From the NCBI GenBank assembly GCA_946622415.1, contig CAMOPX010000016.1, forward strand, positions 1 to 42,187: a stretch of 42,187 nt of DNA, given 5' to 3'. The notes beneath the pieces are model-generated. The model was not told the DNA's origin. It saw only the letters and a program-made list of their open reading frames with translations, and did no database searches. This document shows, in pieces, positions 20,151 through 30,801 of this stretch. Every line of letters begins with the position of its first letter. Position 1 is the stretch's first letter. This stretch comes from an uncultured bacterium. Its GTDB lineage: Bacteria > Cyanobacteriota > Vampirovibrionia > Gastranaerophilales > Gastranaerophilaceae. The translations under genes and the position numbers were made by a program.

Positions 20151-22586
20151 ATGGCAAAGAAAGCAAAAGTTGAAACAAGAACAATTAACGGCGATGATAG
20201 CTGCGGTATTTTAGAACATAGTAAAGATACAGTTTGGGTTTATAATGCAGGCTCAAAATCACTTAAATTTATTTATCAAACGGCAAAAAACCCTCAATAT
20301 GACACGATAAAATACGGCGAAGCCTTTATCAGACAGGGAAATGATTTGGTCTTTATCACTCTTTATGAACACAAAACAACCCATGCAGTGAAAAAAATCA
20401 CTAATACAATCAAAAACTACTATTTAGCTGACCATGAAATTACAGTCACAAGACAAGACGGCATCAATCTGGCAACAGTCGATGATTTATTCTATACAAG
20501 TGCTTCGGGCTGGATTTGGGATTTAAGCAATTCCGACACAAATCAAATATACGGAAGCAAGAAAAAAGACAGCTATAATTTTGTTCAGGCAAGAAATAGT
20601 TTTGTGATTGATGAAGCAGGAAACGATAATTATGATGTCAAATATGCAGGTTCCGGCAACAGTTACTATTTTGATTTAAAAGGTAACGACAAATACAACT
20701 TTGTGAATGCAAGAAACAATCAGTTCCCCGATATTGTCAATGATTATGCAGGTAATGATAAATACAAAGTTTCAAACAAAGCTAAAGTTAGTGTTACTGA
20801 TTACAAAGGAAAAGACAGTTACGAAGTATATGATGAAAGCCTTGCAAGAATTAATGACTACAACGGAAACGATAAATACACCATGAATAATGTCGCATTG
20901 GGAAGTTCCGTTTCTGATTATGCGGGCAACGATTCATACAGTGTTTCCAATATTCTTATAGAAAACAAGTTTATGAACATTTACGATACCAAAGGAAACG
21001 ATAAATATAAATTTGACACCATAACTTCAAATTCCTATAAAAACGTGGAAGATAAAAGCGGAAAAGATACCTACAATATATCAGGCGTAAAATCAATAAT
21101 CATTAAAGATAACAGTGATTATGATAAAAAGAGAACCGATGATACCTACAACGTTACAAATTCATCAATAGTTATTATAGAAGAAAAATCAAGCACGGAA
21201 GATAAAAAGATTGCATCAGGAAATGATAAATACAATTTTAACGGAGTAGAAAACACAATTACAACAAATGCAATTAAAGATAGCGCAGGAAATGATAAAT
21301 ATAATATTCAAAATTCTGCAACAATAAAATTTGAAGATGAAAAAGGCGCTGACAACTGGAATTTAATTTCATCTAAAAATATGACCGTTACGGATAAAGA
21401 CGGAAAGGATAAATGGAATATCGTTTCTTCAGCAGGCGGGGAAGAATATAAATTAACCGATAACAAAGGTGATGACGTTTGGACGTTTAACAACAGCAAA
21501 TCAATTTATGCAGTTGATAAAGAAGGTGCCGATAAATACACAATTTCCAATAATTCAATAGGCATTGATATAATCGATAAAGGGGGAAATGATAAATATA
21601 CTATCAAAGATTCTATCAGTTTAGCAATTGATGATAAAGGCAAATCTAATGATAAATATGATATAAATAACTATACATCATCAGATAAATATAACATTTT
21701 ATTCGTAGATGACGGTGGAAAAGACAGCTATAATATCAATAATTCAAGCAATTTCCTTATAGAAAACTTGAGCGGAAATACTACTTATACGATTAATAAT
21801 TCAAGAACCGTAAATATAGGTGATAATGCAGAAACAAAAGCAGCCGACCCTGTTCGTGAAAAAAATACATTCAATATTAAAAATTCATTTGCAACAAATA
21901 TTGATGTTAATTACATAAATTATGAAGAAAGTGAAATAGAAAAATACCTTATTTCAAATGATACTTATAACGTAACAGCAAGCAAAGAAACTTCTATACA
22001 CGATCAGGATTTGGGTAACGACACCTACAATATCAAATCAAATCAAGGCGGAACAATCATAAATGATGATGGCGGAAATGATAACTATACAATCGATAAA
22101 TTAACAAACGATTTTAAAATCATAGATGGTGCAGGCACGGATACTCTTTCTTTATCAAAGACAAAAGCCGATAACCTTATTTATATGGCAAACTATAATA
22201 CATCAACACACACCGATGCACCGAAAAATGACGTAAAAGATGGAAGCTTATTTATATTTGATAAATCAACCAAAGGTTATATTGAAATAAAATACTACTT
22301 TAAAACCAAAACAGACAGCTTTGGAAGAAAATTCCTTAATGGTGACGGTAACGGAATTATCGAAACCATCAATGCAGGTAAAAAAGATGTAACATCAGCA
22401 ATCAACACATACGCTGAATCTATCTCAGACAGTCCGAAACCTGATGCATTAGGGGAAGCCGTTGCAGGATGGCTTAATACAAATTCTTATTCAACAGATA
22501 CTTATACATCAATTGGTACAATATTGGATTCGGATAAAGCTAATGACTTCCTTGCATTTGTTTCACAATATAAACCTGCATCATAA
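20151..22586 (+). CDS. RTX-like beta-roll repeat protein, probably secreted
   Basis: The 811-residue protein has a unique N-terminal part (1-137), about 27 degenerate repeats (138-665) and a unique C-terminal part (666-811). The repeat is about 20 residues: D-x-x-G-N-D-K-Y-x-h-x-N followed by a strand of alternating hydrophobics and the next Asp. Clear copies are KGNDKYNF, AGNDKYKV, NGNDKYTM, GGNDKYTI and LGNDTYNI. This is related to the calcium-binding nonapeptide repeats of RTX proteins (GGxGxDxUx), with the second glycine pair replaced. There is no signal peptide, as expected for type I export, but no export genes are near. A GGGGG ribosome-binding site precedes the ATG and a terminator follows. 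The function is unknown; an adhesin or surface protein is possible. Confidence 0.75.
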   Translation: MAKKAKVETRTINGDDSCGILEHSKDTVWVYNAGSKSLKFIYQTAKNPQYDTIKYGEAFIRQGNDLVFITLYEHKTTHAVKKITNTIKNYYLADHEITVTRQDGINLATVDDLFYTSASGWIWDLSNSDTNQIYGSKKKDSYNFVQARNSFVIDEAGNDNYDVKYAGSGNSYYFDLKGNDKYNFVNARNNQFPDIVNDYAGNDKYKVSNKAKVSVTDYKGKDSYEVYDESLARINDYNGNDKYTMNNVALGSSVSDYAGNDSYSVSNILIENKFMNIYDTKGNDKYKFDTITSNSYKNVEDKSGKDTYNISGVKSIIIKDNSDYDKKRTDDTYNVTNSSIVIIEEKSSTEDKKIASGNDKYNFNGVENTITTNAIKDSAGNDKYNIQNSATIKFEDEKGADNWNLISSKNMTVTDKDGKDKWNIVSSAGGEEYKLTDNKGDDVWTFNNSKSIYAVDKEGADKYTISNNSIGIDIIDKGGNDKYTIKDSISLAIDDKGKSNDKYDINNYTSSDKYNILFVDDGGKDSYNINNSSNFLIENLSGNTTYTINNSRTVNIGDNAETKAADPVREKNTFNIKNSFATNIDVNYINYEESEIEKYLISNDTYNVTASKETSIHDQDLGNDTYNIKSNQGGTIINDDGGNDNYTIDKLTNDFKIIDGAGTDTLSLSKTKADNLIYMANYNTSTHTDAPKNDVKDGSLFIFDKSTKGYIEIKYYFKTKTDSFGRKFLNGDGNGIIETINAGKKDVTSAINTYAESISDSPKPDALGEAVAGWLNTNSYSTDTYTSIGTILDSDKANDFLAFVSQYKPAS

Positions 22587-22613
22587 AAAATCAGCGTTAC
22601 TATAAACTTTTTT

Positions 22614-22652
22614 AATAAAGCAATCCGAAATTTATCATCGGATTGCTTTATT
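22614..22652 (+). terminator. Terminator of the RTX-like gene
   Basis: A perfect 14-bp stem, AATAAAGCAATCCG (22614-22627) with its complement (22639-22652), encloses an 11-base loop. It lies 27 bp after the stop codon. The T-run is short and sits partly within the stem. Confidence 0.8.
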
Positions 22653-22985
22653 GTTAAAAATAACAAAAATATCAGTATGATTGAATTTGAAAAATATTTG
22701 CTGTAAGATAAATTTAAACTGTGCGGAATAAACGGCAAAATGTTGAGTTTTGGCGTTTATGAAGTCCATAGAATGCCGCCGTTGTTGCCGAAGTGTAACG
22801 CAGGCAACACAGCAATTTTAATTGCACAGGCGGAAAACCCGAAACAAAAATTGAAAATTAAATCTGTCGGAGTGGCACTCTGCCGACGAGAAAGATTAAT
22901 AATCTTTCGAGGAGAGGGCAAAAGCCGGAGGCGGTTGCTTCGCCACTCGTACTAAACAAAATCTTGAAAATTGAAAATTTAATCT
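22653..22985. other. Gene-free stretch before tRNA-Leu, with short inverted repeats
   Basis: No gene is supported. The stretch is more GC-rich than its surroundings and holds small stems: GCAATT-TT-AATTGC near 22811-22824, TTGCC/GGCAA pairs near 22785-22805, and AAAGATT-AAT-AATCTTT near 22891-22907. It also contains a copy of the start of the tRNA gene. Confidence 0.5.
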
Positions 22986-22996
22986 GTCGGAGTGGC
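22851..22996 (+). repeat. 120-bp-spaced direct repeat including the tRNA-Leu 5' end
   Basis: Bases 22851-22876 and 22971-22996 agree at 25 of 26 positions. The second copy covers 15 bp before tRNA-Leu and its first 11 bases (GTCGGAGTGGC). In the first copy the sequence then diverges (ACTCTGCCGACGAG) and no complete tRNA follows. Confidence 0.8.
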
Positions 22997-23067
22997 GAAA
23001 TTGGTAGACGCGCATGATTCAGGTTCATGTGGGTAACACCTTGTGGGTTCAAATCCCATCTCCGACA
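22986..23067 (+). tRNA. tRNA-Leu, anticodon CAG
   Basis: The 82-base gene folds as a class II tRNA. The acceptor stem is GTCGGAG with CTCCGAC and discriminator A. The anticodon stem CATGA/TCATG holds the loop TTCAGGT with anticodon CAG, which reads CUG. A long variable arm (GGGTAACACCT region) and a T arm GTGGG-TTCAAAT-CCCAT follow. CCA is not encoded. It lies 165 bp upstream of pflB. Confidence 0.93.
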
Positions 23068-23135
23068 TTTTTTTAATAAATTAACCCCATTATCGTTCTC
23101 TTATATTACTTACAATGTATTTTACAAAATGTGAA

Positions 23136-23149
23136 GCGGTCATTTCCGC
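23136..23149. promoter_or_regulatory. Short inverted repeat in the pflB leader
   Basis: GCGG-TCATTT-CCGC lies 83 bp before the pflB start codon and about 20 bp after a TACAAT hexamer (23111-23116) that could be a -10 box. It may be an operator or an mRNA hairpin. The -35 region is not recognisable. Confidence 0.35.
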
Positions 23150-23232
23150 CAAACTATACAAAAATACAAGAAAAGGTAATATTTTTTCTTTTTAGTGGTA
23201 AAATAAATATACTGGACTTGTGGGAGAAAAAA

Positions 23233-25305
23233 ATGGATATGTTGCTTGAAACCGGTACGGAAGATTTTGTAGGCGGTAAATGGCAAAATGAAATAAATGT
23301 TCGTGATTTCATTCAAAGAAATTACACGTTGTATGAAGGAGATTCAAGTTTTCTTGCACCTCCCACCGAAGCTACAAAAAAATTGTGGAAAAAATGCACC
23401 GACCTTTTTAAAAAAGAACGTGAAAACGGCGGGGTTGTTGATATGGATACAAAAATCGTATCCACAATAACATCACATAAAGCAGGTTACATAGATAAAT
23501 CCTTAGAAAAAATTGTAGGACTTCAAACTGATAAACCCCTAAAAAGAAGCCTCCAACCCTTTGGCGGTATCAGAATGGCACAAACGGCATGCCAATCTTA
23601 CGGCTATAAAGTCGATGATGAAATAACGGAAATTTTCACAAAATACAGAAAAACTCACAATCAAGGTGTTTTTGACGTTTATACGCCCGAAATGCGAAAG
23701 GCTCGTCATGCGGCAATATTAACAGGACTCCCCGACGCATACGGCAGAGGAAGAATAATAGGCGACTACAGACGTATTGCACTGTACGGAATAGATAAAT
23801 TAATCGAAGATAAAATCGAACAGCATGCCTCTATTGAAGGCGAAATGACTGCAGAAAAAATACAATTAAAAGAAGAACTTGCAGAACAGATAAAAGCATT
23901 AAATGAAATGGCGGAATTGGGTGAAATATACGGTTTTAATATCAGAAAACCTGCCCGAAATGCGCGTGAAGCTATACAATGGCTATATTTTGGTTATTTA
24001 TCCGCAGTAAAAGAACAAAATGGCGCTGCCATGTCAATCGGCAGAACATCAACTTTTCTTGATATATATATAGAAAGAGATTTAAAAAAAGGTTTAATAA
24101 CGGAATCTGAAGCCCAAGAATTAATCGATCATTTTATTATGAAGTTGAGATTGGTTAAATTCGCAAGAACACCGGAATACAACTCTTTATTCTCAGGCGA
24201 TCCGACATGGGTAACAGAATCGATTGCAGGTGTCGGTATGGATGGAAGACCCTTGGTTACAAAAAATTCCTTCAGATATCTGCACACTTTAGAAAACTTG
24301 GGTACTGCACCCGAACCCAATTTAACCGTTCTTTGGTCAACAAGATTACCCAAAAATTTTAAACAATATGCAGCCCATATTTCCATTAAAACTTCATCAA
24401 TCCAATATGAAAATGATGATTTGATGAGGGTTGTCCATGGGGATGATTATGCTATTGCATGCTGTGTTTCTTCCATGGTAATAGGAAAAGAAATGCAATT
24501 CTTCGGCGCAAGAGCTAATCTTGCAAAATGTTTATTGTATGCAATCAATGGCGGAGTTGATGAAAGATTAAAAGAACAAGTCGGACCAAAATATCGCCCC
24601 ATAACATCCGAATACTTAAATTATGAAGAAGTAATTGAAAAATATGAAGATATGATGGAATGGCTTGCGGGTTTGTATGTAAATACTTTAAATTGTATTC
24701 ACTATATGCACGATAAATACTGTTACGAACGCTCGCAGATGGCACTTCACGATAGAGACGTAAAACGTTATTTTGCAACGGGAATTGCGGGATTATCGGT
24801 TGTTGCAGACAGTTTATCCGCTATTAAATATGCAAAAGTTAAAACAATAAGAGATGAAAACGGCCTTGTTATTGATTATGAAGTTGAAGGCGAATATCCA
24901 AAGTACGGAAACAATGATGATAGAGCAGATAAAATTGCGGTTGAATTAGTTCATAAATTTATGAACATGATTCGAAAACATCATACCTACAGAAATTCAA
25001 TCCCCACAATGTCGATTTTAACAATTACATCTAATGTCGTATACGGTAAGAAAACAGGAAATACACCCGACGGAAGGAAAGCGGGAGTGCCTTTAGCCCC
25101 CGGTGCAAACCCCATGCATGGCAGAGATACAAAAGGTGCCGTTGCGTCCCTTGCATCAGTTGCAAAATTACCGTTTAACGATGCACAGGATGGAATCTCA
25201 AATACATTTTCAATCATCCCGAATGCTCTCGGAAAAGATGAGGTATTTATGGGCGATATTATGGTAAACTTTGATTGCGGATGTTCGGAAGGAAACTGCC
25301 AGTAA
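23233..25305 (+). CDS. pflB: Pyruvate formate-lyase core lacking the glycyl-radical domain
   Basis: The enzyme splits pyruvate plus CoA into acetyl-CoA and formate. The start at 23233 is set by GGGAG 6 nt upstream and by the family start ([20 protein letters not shown]); a longer frame from 23131 is not needed. The core is complete: [38 protein letters not shown], and catalytic C410-C411 in AIACCVSSM. The chain then ends at 690 residues, against about 760 in E. coli. After [11 protein letters not shown] it has a short tail with [10 protein letters not shown] and a TAA stop. The C-terminal domain with the radical glycine is absent and no frameshift restores it downstream; it is encoded at 28522-28896. 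Alone, this protein cannot be active by the known mechanism. Confidence 0.95.
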
Positions 25306-25318
25306 TAAACGGTATTTT

Positions 25319-26407
25319 ATGAATAAATTTATAATTAAATATTTCATAATTTTTGTTTCGTTTATTTCTATACTGTTTTTCTCGCTTGTTTTCTTTAATA
25401 AATTCATGACAGAGCAAATGCTCAGCGCAGGGCCGAATATGGGTAGACCCATGCAAGAAGCTCCAATGGGATTCCATCCGTCAGAACCTGTGCAAGAAGC
25501 CCCCATGCCGCCTGAACCTCCGATTTCCGTTCCTTTAATATTTATTATTTTTGTAAGCTCCGTTTTTGTTCTGACCGTACTTAAATACATTGAAAAAAAC
25601 TTTGTAAAACCGCTTGAAAATATAGAAGAAAACGTCAAAAAAATCAAAGAAGGCAATCTTAATATTGAATTTAAAACAAAAAGTGAAAATAAAACTGCCA
25701 TAGAAACCTTTGATACCTTGAATAAAATGACGGAAGGATTAATTCAAAAAGAAAAATTACAAAACGATTTCATAAGAAATATTGTCCACGATTTAAGAGC
25801 GCCAATCGTTGCATCGGAAAGAGCAATGGATATTTTAGAAGGCGAAATTGATAACGAACTTTATGAAGCTTTAAAAGAAAACAGTGATTCCTATTTAAAA
25901 CTCGTAAACAGCATTATAGAAACAATTACAAAAAAAGAAATCAAAACCGAAAAAATCACTTTTTCATTATTGCCGTTGGTTAATACTGTCGTAAATACTC
26001 TTAAATTTTCTATAAATAGCAAAAACATTACTATTAAAAAAGAAATTAGCGAAAATTTTTCTATATGGGCAGATTATGTTTCGGTGAATAGAATTATTTT
26101 GAACCTTATTTCCAATGCAATTGAACATAATGAAAACAGAACAATCACAATAAAAGCCATCGACGGAGATTTTTCGACCGTGATTATTGAAGATAACGGA
26201 TTGGGAATTAAAAACCCCGAAGAACTGTTTAAAAAACATATTTCTATCAATAATTCGGACAAGAAAATGGTTTCGGGACTCGGACTTTCAATTGTTAAAG
26301 AACTGACTGAAGCAAACGAAGGCACTATTGAAGTTGAAACGGAAGAAAACAAATACACAAGATTTATACTGAAATTTCCAAAGAAAGAAAAATATGAAAA
26401 AAATTAA
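25319..26407 (+). CDS. Sensor histidine kinase with Met/Pro-rich extracytoplasmic loop
   Basis: The ATG at 25319, 13 nt after the pflB stop, starts directly before the first membrane helix. The 362-residue kinase has two membrane helices (about 5-27 and 70-90) around a loop of about 45 residues rich in Met and Pro (MTEQML, NMGRPMQEAPMGFHP, EAPMPPEPP). Then come HAMP, HisKA with FIRNIVHDLRAPIVAS, and HATPase_c with N box NLISNAIEHNENR, G1 EDNGLGI and G2 SGLGLSIVK. It overlaps the next gene, a response regulator, by 14 bp, so the two are a pair. The loop might sense a metal such as copper, or redox state; this is speculation. Confidence 0.92.
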   Translation: MNKFIIKYFIIFVSFISILFFSLVFFNKFMTEQMLSAGPNMGRPMQEAPMGFHPSEPVQEAPMPPEPPISVPLIFIIFVSSVFVLTVLKYIEKNFVKPLENIEENVKKIKEGNLNIEFKTKSENKTAIETFDTLNKMTEGLIQKEKLQNDFIRNIVHDLRAPIVASERAMDILEGEIDNELYEALKENSDSYLKLVNSIIETITKKEIKTEKITFSLLPLVNTVVNTLKFSINSKNITIKKEISENFSIWADYVSVNRIILNLISNAIEHNENRTITIKAIDGDFSTVIIEDNGLGIKNPEELFKKHISINNSDKKMVSGLGLSIVKELTEANEGTIEVETEENKYTRFILKFPKKEKYEKN

Positions 26408-27059
26408 TGTAATTATCGTAGAAGACCATCCTTTAACAAGACAAACTCTTGCTTACCAATTAAAAAAGAAGGAAGAAATAAATCTTCTTGAAGCCTTTGA
26501 AAACGGAAAACAAATCTTGGATTATATTTCGGATAAAACAAGTACAAAACCCGATATAATTTTAATGGATATAGACATGCCCGTTATTGACGGAATTGAA
26601 GCAACGGTTGAAATTAAAAAGACAAATGCCAATTATCCGATAATAATGCTTACAAACCACAAAGACAGAGAAAAAGTGTTATATGCCTTTAAAAGCGGTG
26701 CTAACGGATATTGTGTTAAAGATATTAAAATTGATGAACTCTCGACTGTATTCAACACAATACTGGAAGGCGGTATATGGGTAGATAAAAAGATTGCACA
26801 ATTCATTTTTGATATTTTAAAAGCTAGCGAAAAAGAACAAATAGAAAAACACACAGCAGAAGAATTTGATATAACGAATAGAGAAAAGGAAGTATTAAAG
26901 CTTGTTGCGGACGGATTATCCAATGACGAAATTACGGAAAAACTCTTTATTTCAAGAAACACCGTAAAAAACCATATTTCAAGCATAATTACAAAACTTT
27001 CCGTAAAAGACAGAACTCAAGCTGCCGTTTTTGCACTTAAAAACAATATGTTTGACTGA
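26394..27059 (+). CDS. NarL/LuxR-family response regulator
   Basis: The 221-residue protein has a receiver (1-120) with E10-D11, phosphorylated D59 in IILMDIDMPV, T87 in MLTNHK and K109 in YCVKD. The C-terminal LuxR-type helix-turn-helix (about 155-217) reads DITNREKEVLKLVADGLSND...ISRNTVKNHISSIITKL. It is the partner of the overlapping kinase. The next two genes downstream share a palindromic upstream box, and such regulators bind inverted repeats as dimers, so the box is a natural candidate target. Confidence 0.95.
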   Translation: MKKINVIIVEDHPLTRQTLAYQLKKKEEINLLEAFENGKQILDYISDKTSTKPDIILMDIDMPVIDGIEATVEIKKTNANYPIIMLTNHKDREKVLYAFKSGANGYCVKDIKIDELSTVFNTILEGGIWVDKKIAQFIFDILKASEKEQIEKHTAEEFDITNREKEVLKLVADGLSNDEITEKLFISRNTVKNHISSIITKLSVKDRTQAAVFALKNNMFD

Positions 27060-27080
27060 TTTTTTTTGAATAATTTAAAA

Positions 27081-27098
27081 ATGGTTCTCGAGAACTAT
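27081..27098. promoter_or_regulatory. Palindromic box, copy 1 (candidate regulator-binding site)
   Basis: ATGGTTCTCGAGAACTAT contains the perfect 12-bp palindrome GTTCTCGAGAAC (27084-27095). The box recurs at 27934-27951 with one difference. It is 22 bp after the response-regulator stop and about 80 bp before the 27171 start. A CATAAT hexamer at 27105-27110 would place the box over the -35 region. Confidence 0.7.
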
Positions 27099-27170
27099 GA
27101 ATAACATAATTAACTTTCTCTTTATTAATAAGTAAATAGAAAACTTATTAAAAGAAAGAGAGAGGAAAAG

Positions 27171-27842
27171 ATGTTTAGAATTACAAACAACAATTTCGGA
27201 GCCAAAAATGCAAGTTCTGAAAAAACCGTAACAAACCCTATTAAAAACGACAACGATCCAACAAGATTATCATTTTGCATACGCGAAATGTTGTCATTTC
27301 AATCAACAGTCGAAGATAAAGAAAACAAAGACATACAAGACGCTTTTTATTTAGCACTGGAAGAAGCAGAAGAAGAAAATTATTCTATTAATTTTGTTGA
27401 AACATTCTCTTCAAATATTGTTGATGAAGAATCCAAAGATGAACATACAAAATTTTCAATATCTGATTTAAAAAGAAAAGAATTAAAACAAGAAACAGGA
27501 AATCAGTTGTTCGATATTTATTTAAACGCCGATTACCCTAATGATGAAAAATACATCGAACATAACGCAATGATGATAACTTTACTTTCAAACGCTTCCG
27601 AAAAACAAATTAAAGAATTTATGAATTCTTTTGAAATTTTAACTAAAGATTACGATGTTAATGAAGACAGATATGATTTTTCTTACGAAAACCTTGGAAA
27701 ACAACTTTTGTATGCATCACGAGCATCAAACATTACGGGTCAAAATATCTTTAATGACTTCATGAATAAAGTTAAGTTGTACCCTGATTTATTTCCTAAT
27801 TATAACGAATTTGCCGGAATAGCTCTTGGAAATCAATTGTAA
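27171..27842 (+). CDS. Unknown 223-residue cytoplasmic protein
   Basis: No family is recognised. It has no signal peptide or membrane segment, an Asn/Ser-rich start, an acidic middle, and a helical C-terminal half (from about 125, YIEHNAMMITLLSNASEKQIKEFMNSF). GAGAGGAAAAG before the ATG is a strong ribosome-binding site. Its leader shares two elements with that of the gene at 28011: the palindromic box and AAAAGAAAGAGAG (27150-27162). It probably belongs to the regulon of the adjacent two-component system; its role is unknown. Confidence 0.7.
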   Translation: MFRITNNNFGAKNASSEKTVTNPIKNDNDPTRLSFCIREMLSFQSTVEDKENKDIQDAFYLALEEAEEENYSINFVETFSSNIVDEESKDEHTKFSISDLKRKELKQETGNQLFDIYLNADYPNDEKYIEHNAMMITLLSNASEKQIKEFMNSFEILTKDYDVNEDRYDFSYENLGKQLLYASRASNITGQNIFNDFMNKVKLYPDLFPNYNEFAGIALGNQL

Positions 27843-27933
27843 GATTATAAATTATTTCGGGATAAATACAAAAGCCGATTGCAATTTCAATAAGTCTTAT
27901 ATTCAAAATTTTTGTAATTTGTCTGTTGAATAA

Positions 27934-27951
27934 ATGGTTCCCGAGAACTAT
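27934..27951. promoter_or_regulatory. Palindromic box, copy 2 (candidate regulator-binding site)
   Basis: ATGGTTCCCGAGAACTAT differs from copy 1 at one of 18 positions. It stands about 60 bp before the 28011 start, whose leader also repeats AAAAGAAAGAGAG (27993-28005). Confidence 0.7.
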
Positions 27952-28010
27952 AAATTTTTAATAAAATAATACGTTTTAATAATTACAAATACAAAAGAAA
28001 GAGAGTAAAA

Positions 28011-28376
28011 ATGAAAAAAATTTTAGTATTAACATTAATTTTGTCGACAACAATATCAATAGTCCAAGCAAGCAACGTTTTCAATCAAAAAGTGAATTCT
28101 AATATGGAAACACCGGAAGAATTTATTAGAACAGGAAATCCCAATAAGGATTTAGAAAACTATGCAAGAATAAATAATATCTCGAAAAGAGAAGCTAAAA
28201 AGATATTAAAAGCTATGTATGGAAAACCCAAAAAACCCGAAAAATTGTTTAATCAAATTGCAAGAACGGGTAATCCTGAATTAGATTTATATAATTTTGC
28301 ACAAGAAAACAATTTGTCTTTGGAAAAAGCAAAAGAAATTTTATTTGATATGTTTAAAGAACCGGAGATTGATTAG
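28011..28376 (+). CDS. Small exported protein with two tandem 36-residue repeats
   Basis: The 121-residue product has a signal peptide (MKKILVLTLILSTTISIVQA). The mature part contains two copies of a motif R-T-G-N-P-x2-D-L-x-N-x-A-x2-N-N-x-S-x4-A-K-x-I-L-x2-M, beginning near residues 40 and 85. Each is probably a helical hairpin. No known domain is recognised. It shares its upstream box and leader motif with the gene at 27171, so it is probably a co-regulated periplasmic or secreted product of the two-component system. Confidence 0.75.
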   Translation: MKKILVLTLILSTTISIVQASNVFNQKVNSNMETPEEFIRTGNPNKDLENYARINNISKREAKKILKAMYGKPKKPEKLFNQIARTGNPELDLYNFAQENNLSLEKAKEILFDMFKEPEID

Positions 28377-28486
28377 TTATGAGACAGTTGAGATTTCTCA
28401 TATTAAAATAACTAAAGGATATTGAAAAATGATATAAACCAAACAGATTAATAAAAGTTATTATTTTCTTTAATATTTTAAAATTG

Positions 28487-28495
28487 TGTTATAAT
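28487..28495 (+). promoter_or_regulatory. Extended -10 promoter of the glycyl-radical domain / pflA pair
   Basis: TGTTATAAT is an extended -10 box (TG-n-TATAAT). It lies 26 bp before the start at 28522; AAGGAG at about 28507-28512 is the ribosome-binding site. The pair is thus likely transcribed apart from pflB. Confidence 0.6.
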
Positions 28496-28521
28496 AAAAT
28501 AACTAAAAAGGAGTTTATTTT

Positions 28522-28896
28522 ATGTTAACGCAGCAGGAAGAAAATTTAATCAGCTTACTGGACGGATATGTTGAAAAAGGCGGTCATCATTTAAATGTTA
28601 ATGTGTTTAATAAAGATACATTAATCGATGCTCAAAAGCACCCCGAAAAATATCCTCAATTAACAGTTAGAGTTTCAGGCTATGCGGTTAACTTTATTAA
28701 ATTAACAAAAGAGCAACAGGATGATATCATATCAAGAACCTTCCATTCATCAATAAATCCTGCATCGGATAAAACCACTGCTTTAGAAACATCCGCAAAA
28801 ACAAAAGTAAGAGAATCCAAAGGCGCAATGACGGTTCCCTCTGATTTCAGAAATTCTCCAAAAACAGCAAGAACAAAAACACCTTCAAAGATATAA
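28522..28896 (+). CDS. Stand-alone glycyl-radical domain of pyruvate formate-lyase (GrcA-like)
   Basis: This 124-residue protein equals the C-terminal domain of Pfl[40 protein letters not shown] and [17 protein letters not shown]. The radical-bearing glycine is G53 in RVSGYA. Its N-terminus lines up with the point where the core at 23233-25305 stops. Residues 80-124 are an extra basic, disordered tail not found in PflB. E. coli GrcA (YfiD) is a similar free domain used to repair oxygen-cut PflB, but there the intact enzyme also exists; here the core has no such domain. pflA begins 7 bp later, so the activating enzyme and its substrate are made together. Confidence 0.93.
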
Positions 28897-28903
28897 ATAA
28901 ATC

Positions 28904-29638
28904 ATGCCTGATATTTTGGGAAATATTCATTCGATAGAATCCTTTGGTACGGTCGATGGCCCCAATGTAAGATATGTCATCTTTTTTCAGGGGTGTCCGA
29001 TGAGGTGTCTTTATTGTCATAACCCTGACAGTTGGTCAACAGACACAAATCAACACATGACCGCAAAAGAAATATTAAAACAATATGAAAGTGTAAAGGA
29101 ATTTTGTAAAGGCGGAATCACGGCAACAGGTGGTGAACCGTTGTTGCAGATTGATTTTTTAATTGATTTATTCAAAGAAGCAAAAACAAAAAATATCCAC
29201 ACATGCCTTGATACATCAGGAATTTTATTCAATAAAAACGATACAAAAAAATTTGATGAATTAATAAAATATACAGGCTTAATTTTGTTGGATATAAAAC
29301 ATATCGACGATAACGAACACAGGATTTTAACGGGACATTCAAACAAAAATGTTCTTGATTTTGCAAAATATTTATCCGAAAATCAAATCCCCGTTTGGAT
29401 TCGACATGTTGTGGTTCCCGATATTACATTTAATGAAAAATATTTAAAAGAATTAGGGAAATTTTTATCAACATTAAAAAACATAAAAGCGCTGGACGTT
29501 TTACCTTATCACAATATGGCAATACCAAAATATGAAGAACTCGGAATCGAATATAAATTAAAAGACACTAAACCTTTGACAAAAGAACAGGCAATCGAAG
29601 CAAGAGATATAATTTTAAATGCTATACAAAATGTTTAA
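28904..29638 (+). CDS. pflA: Pyruvate formate-lyase activating enzyme (radical SAM)
   Basis: PflA uses a [4Fe-4S] cluster and S-adenosylmethionine to make the glycyl radical. The 244-residue protein has the cluster motif C31-x3-C35-x2-C38 in FFQGCPMRCLYCHNP, the SAM-contacting TGGEPLLQ, HTCLDTSG, LLDIKH and VWIRHVVVPD. It matches E. coli PflA along its length. No ribosome-binding site is evident, so translation may be coupled to the 7-bp distant radical-domain gene. Confidence 0.96.
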   Translation: MPDILGNIHSIESFGTVDGPNVRYVIFFQGCPMRCLYCHNPDSWSTDTNQHMTAKEILKQYESVKEFCKGGITATGGEPLLQIDFLIDLFKEAKTKNIHTCLDTSGILFNKNDTKKFDELIKYTGLILLDIKHIDDNEHRILTGHSNKNVLDFAKYLSENQIPVWIRHVVVPDITFNEKYLKELGKFLSTLKNIKALDVLPYHNMAIPKYEELGIEYKLKDTKPLTKEQAIEARDIILNAIQNV

Positions 29639-29653
29639 ATTAATGTATATTTT

Positions 29654-29682
29654 TTGCCCGATTTTATTGAATAAGATAAAAT
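29654..29682 (+). promoter_or_regulatory. Leaderless promoter of the GT2-GtrA gene
   Basis: TTGCCC (29654-29659), a 17-bp spacer and TAAAAT (29677-29682) are followed by 6 nt and then the ATG at 29689. The start of transcription should be the A of the ATG. There is no ribosome-binding site. ATAAGA/TCTTAT also forms a small stem overlapping the start. Confidence 0.6.
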
Positions 29683-29688
29683 TGTCTT

Positions 29689-30801
29689 ATGAAAACTCTC
29701 AGCCTTATTGTACCTGTTTATAATGAAGAAGCTACTCTTGAAACTATTATAGAAAAAATACTGAAACTTCAGGAAGAAAAGTATTTAAAAGAACAAGAAA
29801 TAAATCTTGAACTTGTTTTAGTGGACGATTATTCAAAAGATAATTCTTATTCAATAGCAAAAGAACTGGAAAAAAAATACAATAACATAAAGGTTTTTCG
29901 CCACGAAAAAAATATGGGAAAAGGTGCTGCCTTAAAAACAGGGTTTATTGAAGCAACCGGAGATTATATCGGAATACAGGATGCCGACAATGAATATAAT
30001 CCTTTGGAATATGTGAAGCTCCTTCAGCCTATATTAGAAGATAAAGCGGATATAGTGTACGGTTCAAGATATCTAAAAAGAGATACAAGAAGAATACTTT
30101 ATTTTTGGCATACCTTTATGAATAAAGGTTTAACACTGTTGACCAATATGTATACCAATCTCGATATTACGGATATGGAAACATGTTATAAACTGTTTAA
30201 AAAAGAAATAATTAAAAAAATAGCGCCTGCTTTAAAAGAAAACAGGTTCGGTTTTGAACCCGAAGTAACAATAAAAATATCGGAAGGAAACTACAGATTA
30301 TATGAATGCGCAATATCATACAATCCGAGAAGTTACGAAGAAGGCAAAAAAATATGCGCTAAGGACGGATTAAGAGCCTTATATTGTATTTTGCATTATG
30401 GAGCGCATTCTGCACCTTTGCCTATGCAATTTATTTTATATATCTTTATCGGCGGATTTAGCGCAGTTGTAAACATATTAACATTTGTCATACTTGCAAA
30501 ATTTATACAAAATTTGTTTATAAATGTTGCAATATCATTCATTATTGCATCCATAGTTAATTATCTTCTTTGCATATTACTTTTATTCCGTCATAAAGCA
30601 AGATGGTCGTCAACATTAGAAATCGTAACATACATTATAACGCTTGCTATAATGGGTGCTGTCGACTATTATTCCACATATTTATTTTTAACAATAGGAT
30701 TATCAAATTTCTGGGCAAAATCTTTTTCTAATGTTATAGGAGTTTTCGGAAACTTTTTGCTCAGAAAATATTTTGTATTTCAGGAAAAGAAAAAATCATA
30801 A
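29689..30801 (+). CDS. GT2 glycosyltransferase fused to a GtrA-like membrane domain
   Basis: The 370-residue protein starts with a GT-A fold (1-235) of the dolichyl/undecaprenyl-phosphate sugar transferase type: IVPVYNEEATL, D46-D47 in LVLVDDYSKDNS, GKGAALKTGF, D98-x-D100 in IGIQDADNEYNP, and YGSRYL. From about 243 a GtrA-like domain with four membrane helices follows (QFILYIFIGGFSAVVNILTF and on to NVIGVFGNFLLRKYFVF). It probably loads a sugar on a lipid carrier and helps flip it for envelope glycan. The fusion is known in other bacteria. Confidence 0.9.
   Translation: MKTLSLIVPVYNEEATLETIIEKILKLQEEKYLKEQEINLELVLVDDYSKDNSYSIAKELEKKYNNIKVFRHEKNMGKGAALKTGFIEATGDYIGIQDADNEYNPLEYVKLLQPILEDKADIVYGSRYLKRDTRRILYFWHTFMNKGLTLLTNMYTNLDITDMETCYKLFKKEIIKKIAPALKENRFGFEPEVTIKISEGNYRLYECAISYNPRSYEEGKKICAKDGLRALYCILHYGAHSAPLPMQFILYIFIGGFSAVVNILTFVILAKFIQNLFINVAISFIIASIVNYLLCILLLFRHKARWSSTLEIVTYIITLAIMGAVDYYSTYLFLTIGLSNFWAKSFSNVIGVFGNFLLRKYFVFQEKKKS

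Follow-up and report, generated by a model that had tools for sequence, protein, structure and literature searches.

Oxygen cuts pyruvate formate-lyase (PFL) at its radical glycine. The stretch analysed here, a contig of 42,187 nt from an uncultured member of the Gastranaerophilaceae (CAMOPX010000016.1, assembly GCA_946622415.1, in the following called the window), carries a PFL whose catalytic core and glycyl-radical domain are encoded by two separate genes. PFL is, with pyruvate:ferredoxin oxidoreductase (PFOR), the usual pyruvate-splitting enzyme of anaerobes (PMC13252398).

E. coli PflB (structure 2pfl, family TIGR01255) carries its radical domain within the same chain. Stand-alone glycyl-radical domains that complete PFL from outside are known from E. 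coli YfiD/GrcA and T4 Y06I (TIGR04365); the folded part of E. coli GrcA matches PFL 693-759 (PMC8683613). Such spare parts are described in PMC12338860 (FEBS Lett 2025), PMC12288474 (J Bacteriol 2025) and PMC8683613 as a means to repair damaged or inactive full-length PFL. Another family, GrcA3 (NF038360), is named as an autonomous cofactor, and a Collinsella aerofaciens record names a split pair pflB and grcA3. The small protein type is thus already known to NCBI curators from the GrcA3 model and the Collinsella annotation. A paper on a naturally split PFL was not found in the literature, but subscription journals and bioRxiv are largely uncovered by our search, so that one may exist.

Core and radical domain are separate genes in the window

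The elements of the two-part PFL are the following.

23233..25305, + strand: PFL core gene, 690 aa, ATG at 23233 and TAA at 25303-25305; whole PFL-like domain with C410-C411, without radical domain
25237..25302, + strand: C-terminal tail of the core after ALGK, 22 residues, replacing the radical domain
28522..28896, + strand: radical subunit gene, 124 aa, RVSGYA with G53; C-terminal extension with PSDF motif
28904..29638, + strand: pflA, PFL-activating enzyme (radical SAM), TIGR02493 290.6 bits (cut-off 231.75)

The core alone scores as a member of TIGR01255 (1137.9 bits, cut-off 994.2), although only about positions 3-664 of 744 are present, and matches PF02901 with E 2e-221 in the protein profile scan. 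With E. coli PflB it shares 67% identity over the core, the fold, the catalytic residues and the type of activase. The adjacent catalytic cysteines and the substrate-pocket residues are in place (C410-C411, W326, R174, R427 and four others). A model of the lone core was built with AlphaFold2 from the core and 43 relatives (42 chosen from 79 split loci, plus an intact Anoxybacillus PFL). It reaches a mean predicted confidence (pLDDT) of 81.8, with residues 656-690 including the tail below 50, and its best match in the Protein Data Bank is E. coli PFL (2pfl, 67% identity).

A glycyl-radical motif is missing from this chain. PF01228 (Gly_radical, 106 positions) is split without overlap, positions 2-50 lying at 25096-25242 (E 2.8e-11) and positions 51-106 in the other gene at 28528-28698 (E 3.0e-23). 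TIGR01255 is divided likewise: the core covers positions 3-664, the small gene 665-743. Counted from the alignment, the core corresponds to E. coli PflB up to about residue 676 and the small protein sets in at about 678. An earlier note on this DNA was right in that the small protein begins where the core ends. It had also correctly described a core with C410-C411 that ends in ALGKDE, a short tail and TAA, a separate 124-residue gene with RVSGYA (G53) located 3.2 kb downstream, and pflA 7 bp behind the latter. Its estimate that the core is about 70 residues short has to be corrected: the missing domain comprises about 83 residues (E. coli 677-759, counted from the alignment), and the core looks only 70 short because the 22-residue tail makes up length.

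The small protein belongs to GrcA3 by a narrow score (158.5 bits against NF038360, cut-off 158); in the protein profile scan it covers positions 52-106 of PF01228. All 31 aligned members of the small protein match NF038360 at E ≤1e-20, and G53 is invariant among them. In contrast, the score against TIGR04365 (GrcA/YfiD) is 90.2 bits at a cut-off of 170 and covers positions 67-125 only. The disordered N-terminus of 60 residues found in GrcA is absent. Instead the window protein holds about 15 more PFL residues, with a helix before the closing strand, because it starts at about 678 and the folded part of GrcA at 693. GrcA repairs a once-intact enzyme, whereas no intact PFL was found beside the window protein. 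The view of GrcA as a backup, taken in the earlier note, fits E. coli, but these small proteins match an existing NCBI family. In contrast to the name of GrcA3, the present data indicate an obligatory subunit.

The split form is the only form found and is spread as one clade

The genome of the window comprises 1,884,980 bases in 50 contigs and is 91.86% complete. Searches with PF01228, PF02901 and TIGR01255 (the latter at E ≤0.01) returned no other PFL or radical domain; PF02901 has a single match (E 3.8e-222). Accordingly, an intact PFL that a GrcA-type protein could repair in the same cell was not found in this 91.9% complete assembly, and the idea that the two-part form is the only one, raised from the locus alone, now extends to the genome as assembled.

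The same holds for the genus. A split core with a separate small gene is present in 24 of 28 genomes, in one of them (G020) only as pieces at contig ends, and a full-length PFL-type match in none. Two genomes (G026, G027) have neither core nor small gene; the remaining two are discussed below. Class-wide, 90 of 289 genomes match PF01228, among them 13 that hold a full-length PFL-type match (12 from the same family, plus G045). None of these 13 is among the stand-alone small matches listed, and their intact PFLs fall into a separate, distant region of the tree. The match in G190 is a fragment of another radical enzyme.

We also searched a collection of named genomes with the core. The best 80 of at least 584 loci comprise 79 split ones and one intact PFL (Anoxybacillus). 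This sample is biased to the split form since the query itself is a split core, and it says nothing on the share of the split form among all PFLs. Of the 79 split loci, 77 show the small gene, which in L147 is truncated by the end of the contig; the exceptions are L082, where the contig ends, and L088. Among the titles of these loci are Candidatus Gastranaerophilales, Ruminococcus, Lachnospiraceae, Oscillospiraceae, Erysipelotrichaceae, Olsenella and one metagenome-assembled genome (MAG) of Spirochaetales. MAG contamination could explain some single placements, e.g. L080, titled Muribaculaceae.

Together with the window, the fetched loci (L033-L191) yielded 136 proteins above 700 bits, 113 split and 23 intact; at least two pairs of the split loci are identical in sequence (L045/L088 and L054/L082). 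All 113 show the same break. A tree was built from 129 rows, seven having been dropped (five intact ones not cut by the pattern and two partial split ones). All 111 split cores lie on one side of one branch, with a support of 100 in the approximate likelihood ratio test (SH-aLRT). The same branch has SH-aLRT 99 in a tree of 143 rows to which five intact, six metagenome and three phage rows were added, and support of 100/99 for 19 chosen rows. This grouping makes the split look like a single event among the sampled cellular PFLs, with the split cores placed near intact PFLs of Bacillota.

Isolates and sequence constraint point to a working enzyme

Ten isolate genomes were searched whole for PFL. 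Nine have the split core, and eight of these nine show no full-length PFL match: Ruminococcus bicirculans, Beduini massiliensis, Olsenella uli An733, Blautia An81, Lacrimispora amygdalina, Massilimicrobiota An134, Ruminococcus albus KH2T6 and strain 1xD42-87. Claveliimonas bilis has a split and a full-length PFL, Anoxybacillus an intact one only. Acetate and formate are listed as major products of R. albus (PMC8513621, Table 1); no formate data for R. bicirculans were found in the available literature.

In the alignment R176, A272, A273, F327, W333, C418, C419, F432 and R435 of E. coli, which we take to be active-site residues, are conserved in all 111 split rows. The ratio of nonsynonymous to synonymous substitution rates (dN/dS) of the core is 0.068 (pooled over 61 pairs from 30 rows of the same family). 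The sequences demonstrate that the PFL is split, that the split form makes up a single clade among the cellular PFLs sampled, that the active-site residues are conserved and that there is constraint.

A core shorter than E. coli PflB whose missing part lies 3.2 kb away could also be a dead or decaying PFL, with the small gene as a leftover spare part. We consider such a pseudogene very improbable. The identical break recurs in 113 loci of one clade with titles spanning several phyla, purifying selection is strong in the 30 rows of one family, and the nine residues are fully conserved. Moreover pflA is kept beside the small gene, and eight of the nine isolates with a split core show nothing else. 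Based on the genus-wide split, the single clade and these eight isolates, the pair of the window is most likely a working two-subunit PFL.

Proposed interplay of core, small protein and PflA

The core would fold as a PFL barrel with the catalytic cysteines in place, lacking the closing helix, strand and radical loop, which the small protein of GrcA3 type would supply from outside. PflA would act on the small protein, most likely in its docked state on the core, and place the glycyl radical on Gly53, from where the radical would pass to Cys410/411. The conserved tail of the core and the extra N-terminal helix of the small protein may hold both parts together. After an oxygen cut at Gly53 a fresh small protein could replace the old one while the core of 690 residues is kept. 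Complex formation, the site of activation, the role of the tail and exchange after oxygen damage are what we infer from these sequences.

The tails measure 14-48 residues after the last LGK/LGN (median 22, 113 split cores; in at least two rows the cutting pattern fell inside the tail). A motif F-x-G-[DEN] is found in 105 of the 113 tails and at least two cysteines in 62, and the tail is alignable across the 30 rows of the same family. Only six core positions (T272, Y349, H402, S414, F514, Q652) are conserved to at least 90% in the 111 split rows and to at most 15% in the 23 intact rows. These might mark the docking surface, but no conclusion is drawn from them as all split rows come from one clade.

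The earlier note had proposed that the radical subunit is activated apart from the core and is expressed from its own promoter, which would set the ratio of both parts. Neither proposal gained support. Free E. coli YfiD/GrcA shows no detectable activation in the absence of cleaved PFL, though an older Km of 100 uM for YfiD is quoted in the same paper (PMC8683613); hence activation within the complex is the better guess. A promoter scan for the small gene did not exceed shuffled sequences (26 sites versus 31.5 expected), and the small gene usually follows shortly after the core.

Second copies of the radical gene lie beside a CRP/FNR-type regulator

Of the 24 genomes of the genus that have a core, 17 hold another radical gene at a different place, each time with a gene for a regulator of the CRP/FNR family beside it. 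The genome of the window has one copy of the radical gene only. Counting lone copies as well, the regulator is present at 20 of 23 examined loci (not in G012, G014 and G015), and one further regulator lies near a contig-end fragment in G020. The family was confirmed by Pfam for five of them. A motif C-x3-C-x3-C occurs in 20 of 21 of these regulators, the remaining one having a close variant. Examples are L065:2770-3444, L046:12368-13153 and L063:4005-4673, next to 18 others; in L065 a ferritin gene adjoins the regulator gene.

In seven of the 17 genomes both copies are near-identical at the DNA level and mutual best matches: 100% in G001 and G023, 99.5% in G002 and G025, 98.6% in G007, 98.1% in G006 and 97.7% in G010. 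For part of the genus, such second copies fit a common pool under separate regulation; repair is not proven by them. The suggestion that the radical subunit is an exchangeable part thereby became likelier, and replacement after oxygen damage appears plausible from the sequences.

The two-part enzyme could, however, be real and yet go back to a neutral gene fission that was fixed once, the subunits staying together for life and no oxygen repair being gained. We regard this as a serious possibility, clearly short of an even chance. One origin and no re-fusion among 111 rows need no benefit, and the small gene follows soon after the core in most loci, where both are possibly co-transcribed. Against it speak the regulator beside the second radical gene in 17 of 17 two-copy genomes and the near-identical copies in seven of these, both of which hint at a pool with its own regulation.

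Radical genes on phage contigs

Some class III anaerobic ribonucleotide reductases need formate. The 77-aa radical domain has matches in 1539 of the 50,697 records of an annotated phage collection, and in 42 records the match spans 80% of the domain or more. Among viral contigs, whose viral nature is the assignment of IMG/VR, the best 80 of 98 loci were analysed. A stand-alone radical protein is encoded in 57 of the 80, 19 being of a short type without long N-terminus and 38 of a longer, GrcA-like type. For 10 of these 57 the fetched stretch also contains a match to NrdD, which in one case is weak and partial. Radical genes of 76-77 aa beside nrdD and nrdG matches are found in L195:2812-5805, L197:1962-7276, L201, L206, L207 and L208. 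L198 carries a PFL core without tail together with a small gene, while in L197 and L208 the PFL core is present in two open reading frames (ORFs) and a thyX-like gene is found too. Seven of ten neighbour proteins from four viral loci match PHROGs, among them nucleotide kinase, NrdD, DNA ligase and exonuclease; the core of L198 matches a PHROG of unknown function.

As far as can be judged from sequence, stand-alone radical genes on phage contigs count in favour of exchange. We do not claim an independent second split in phages: the trees place L198 with intact PFLs, but with p 0.169 in the approximately unbiased (AU) test a single split clade is not rejected. Aside from this, the viral radical protein L209:5004-5237 reads RVSGYRINF versus RVSGYAVNF, differing just past the radical glycine.

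The wider picture would be that of a large clade of gut anaerobes with a two-subunit PFL, in which the radical carrier of 80 residues is consumable and separately regulated, with a spare pool under a CRP/FNR-type regulator with conserved cysteine cluster and a phage-borne copy beside anaerobic ribonucleotide reductase. We put this forward tentatively, rating it somewhat below an even chance.

Evidence weighed against a two-subunit enzyme

Several observations weigh against a two-subunit PFL with exchangeable radical part. At 91.9% completeness an intact PFL could be missing from the assembly of the window. G012 and G014 have the small gene, but no PFL core was found in their assemblies; the small protein may have another use there, or the assemblies may be incomplete. 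Their radical gene lies in the same context in both (L069 and L071), beside a 457-aa ORF that in L071 matches families of FAD-dependent oxidoreductases. The formate of R. albus could come from another source. The dN/dS of the tail is as low as 0.069, but at near-saturated synonymous sites, and the phage cores L198 and L197 end without any tail, which weakens the idea of docking by the tail. In the other ten of the 17 two-copy genomes the copies are only 81.2% (G005) to 95.8% (G013) alike. Biochemistry on these proteins was not found in the literature.

The engineered pair tPFL:truncYfiD (Andorfer et al. 2021, PMC8683613) bears on both sides. A version of E. coli PFL that stops at residue 695 shows no detectable binding of YfiD, and its activation is 32-fold lower than that of cleaved PFL. 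Once activated, however, truncated PFL with YfiD is as active as wild type. Since the engineered pair is active yet poorly bound and activated, a natural split works in principle and needs a better dock. The native cut is similar but lies about 19 residues earlier, with added sequence at both ends. The native pair would have to have solved the problem of binding and activation. Taken together, core and GrcA3-type small protein very probably constitute a genuine two-subunit PFL.

Gene order and neighbouring genes

In the window the two parts are separated by 3216 bp that hold four genes.

25319..26407, + strand: histidine kinase gene, starting 13 bp past the core (HATPase_c E 3.4e-17)
26394..27059, + strand: NarL/LuxR-type response regulator gene, overlapping the kinase gene (Response_reg E 2.6e-26, GerE E 4.4e-20)
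27171..27842, + strand: 223-aa ORF, no family found
28011..28376, + strand: 121-aa ORF, signal-peptide-like start by eye, no family over cut-off

Among the other split loci fetched, none holds a relative of the kinase above 150 bits in the interval from core to small gene. As this block is unlike the fetched relatives, an assembly artefact or an insertion in one genome might have broken an intact pflB. The probability of this is next to nil: relatives without the block are split too, each with its own stop, tail and start, and the tail of the core is homologous to their tails. An assembly join as cause of the split, named in the earlier note as a possible objection, is thereby refuted. Only the extra distance is specific to the window.

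As a rule, the core is followed by the small gene and then by pflA. Core and small gene share the strand, the small gene lying 3', in 106 of 113 split loci; the median gap is 145.5 bp. A pflA gene follows within 150 bp of the small gene in 48 of the 113, many of which end before pflA could show. In most genomes of the genus, pflA does not adjoin the pair. Most likely, the small gene of the window is the usual copy of the operon, which an insertion has displaced from the core, because its PSDF extension is common to four family genomes near the window by core (L173, L174, L178, L179). In L175 the extension reads PSGF, and L177, also near by core, lacks it.

In some relatives (Blautia An81, Lacrimispora) the small gene follows in frame after the stop of the core. 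Hence an intact PFL might be rebuilt during or after translation by readthrough, frameshifting or a split intein. This is hardly to be expected, given that many loci have differing frames or gaps of hundreds of bases (3.2 kb in the window), that the small genes have their own starts and that neither the core nor the small protein had a match to an intein family at E 0.001.

A palindrome TGGTTCYCGAGAACTAT occurs in two copies, at 27082-27098 and 27935-27951, upstream of the 223-aa and the 121-aa ORF, and its 12-base centre is found nowhere else in the genome assembly. The response regulator, whose gene immediately precedes, may bind at these copies. The kinase has a short Met/Pro-rich loop (MTEQMLSAGPNMGRPMQEAPMG...) between two hydrophobic stretches, which looks as if it were sensing metal or oxidation. 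Upstream of the core, an 811-aa Asp/Asn-rich protein (20151-22586) with repeated NDKYTI-like units matches no Pfam family. An Rfam scan of 22500-30000 returned only a tRNA (E 5.7e-10) and one snoZ7 below gathering score (E 0.23).

Implications of a probable natural two-part PFL

With a natural two-part PFL that is apparently the sole PFL of species such as R. albus and R. bicirculans, what is a spare part in E. coli becomes the normal state. Docking of the radical domain, its activation from outside and its exchange thus become testable, and the GrcA3 annotation should, as our data suggest, read PFL subunit. In principle, oxygen damage could be made good at low cost by exchanging the fragile radical piece; if true, each hit would cost one small protein. 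The pair would then represent a natural design for oxygen-repairable radical enzymes.

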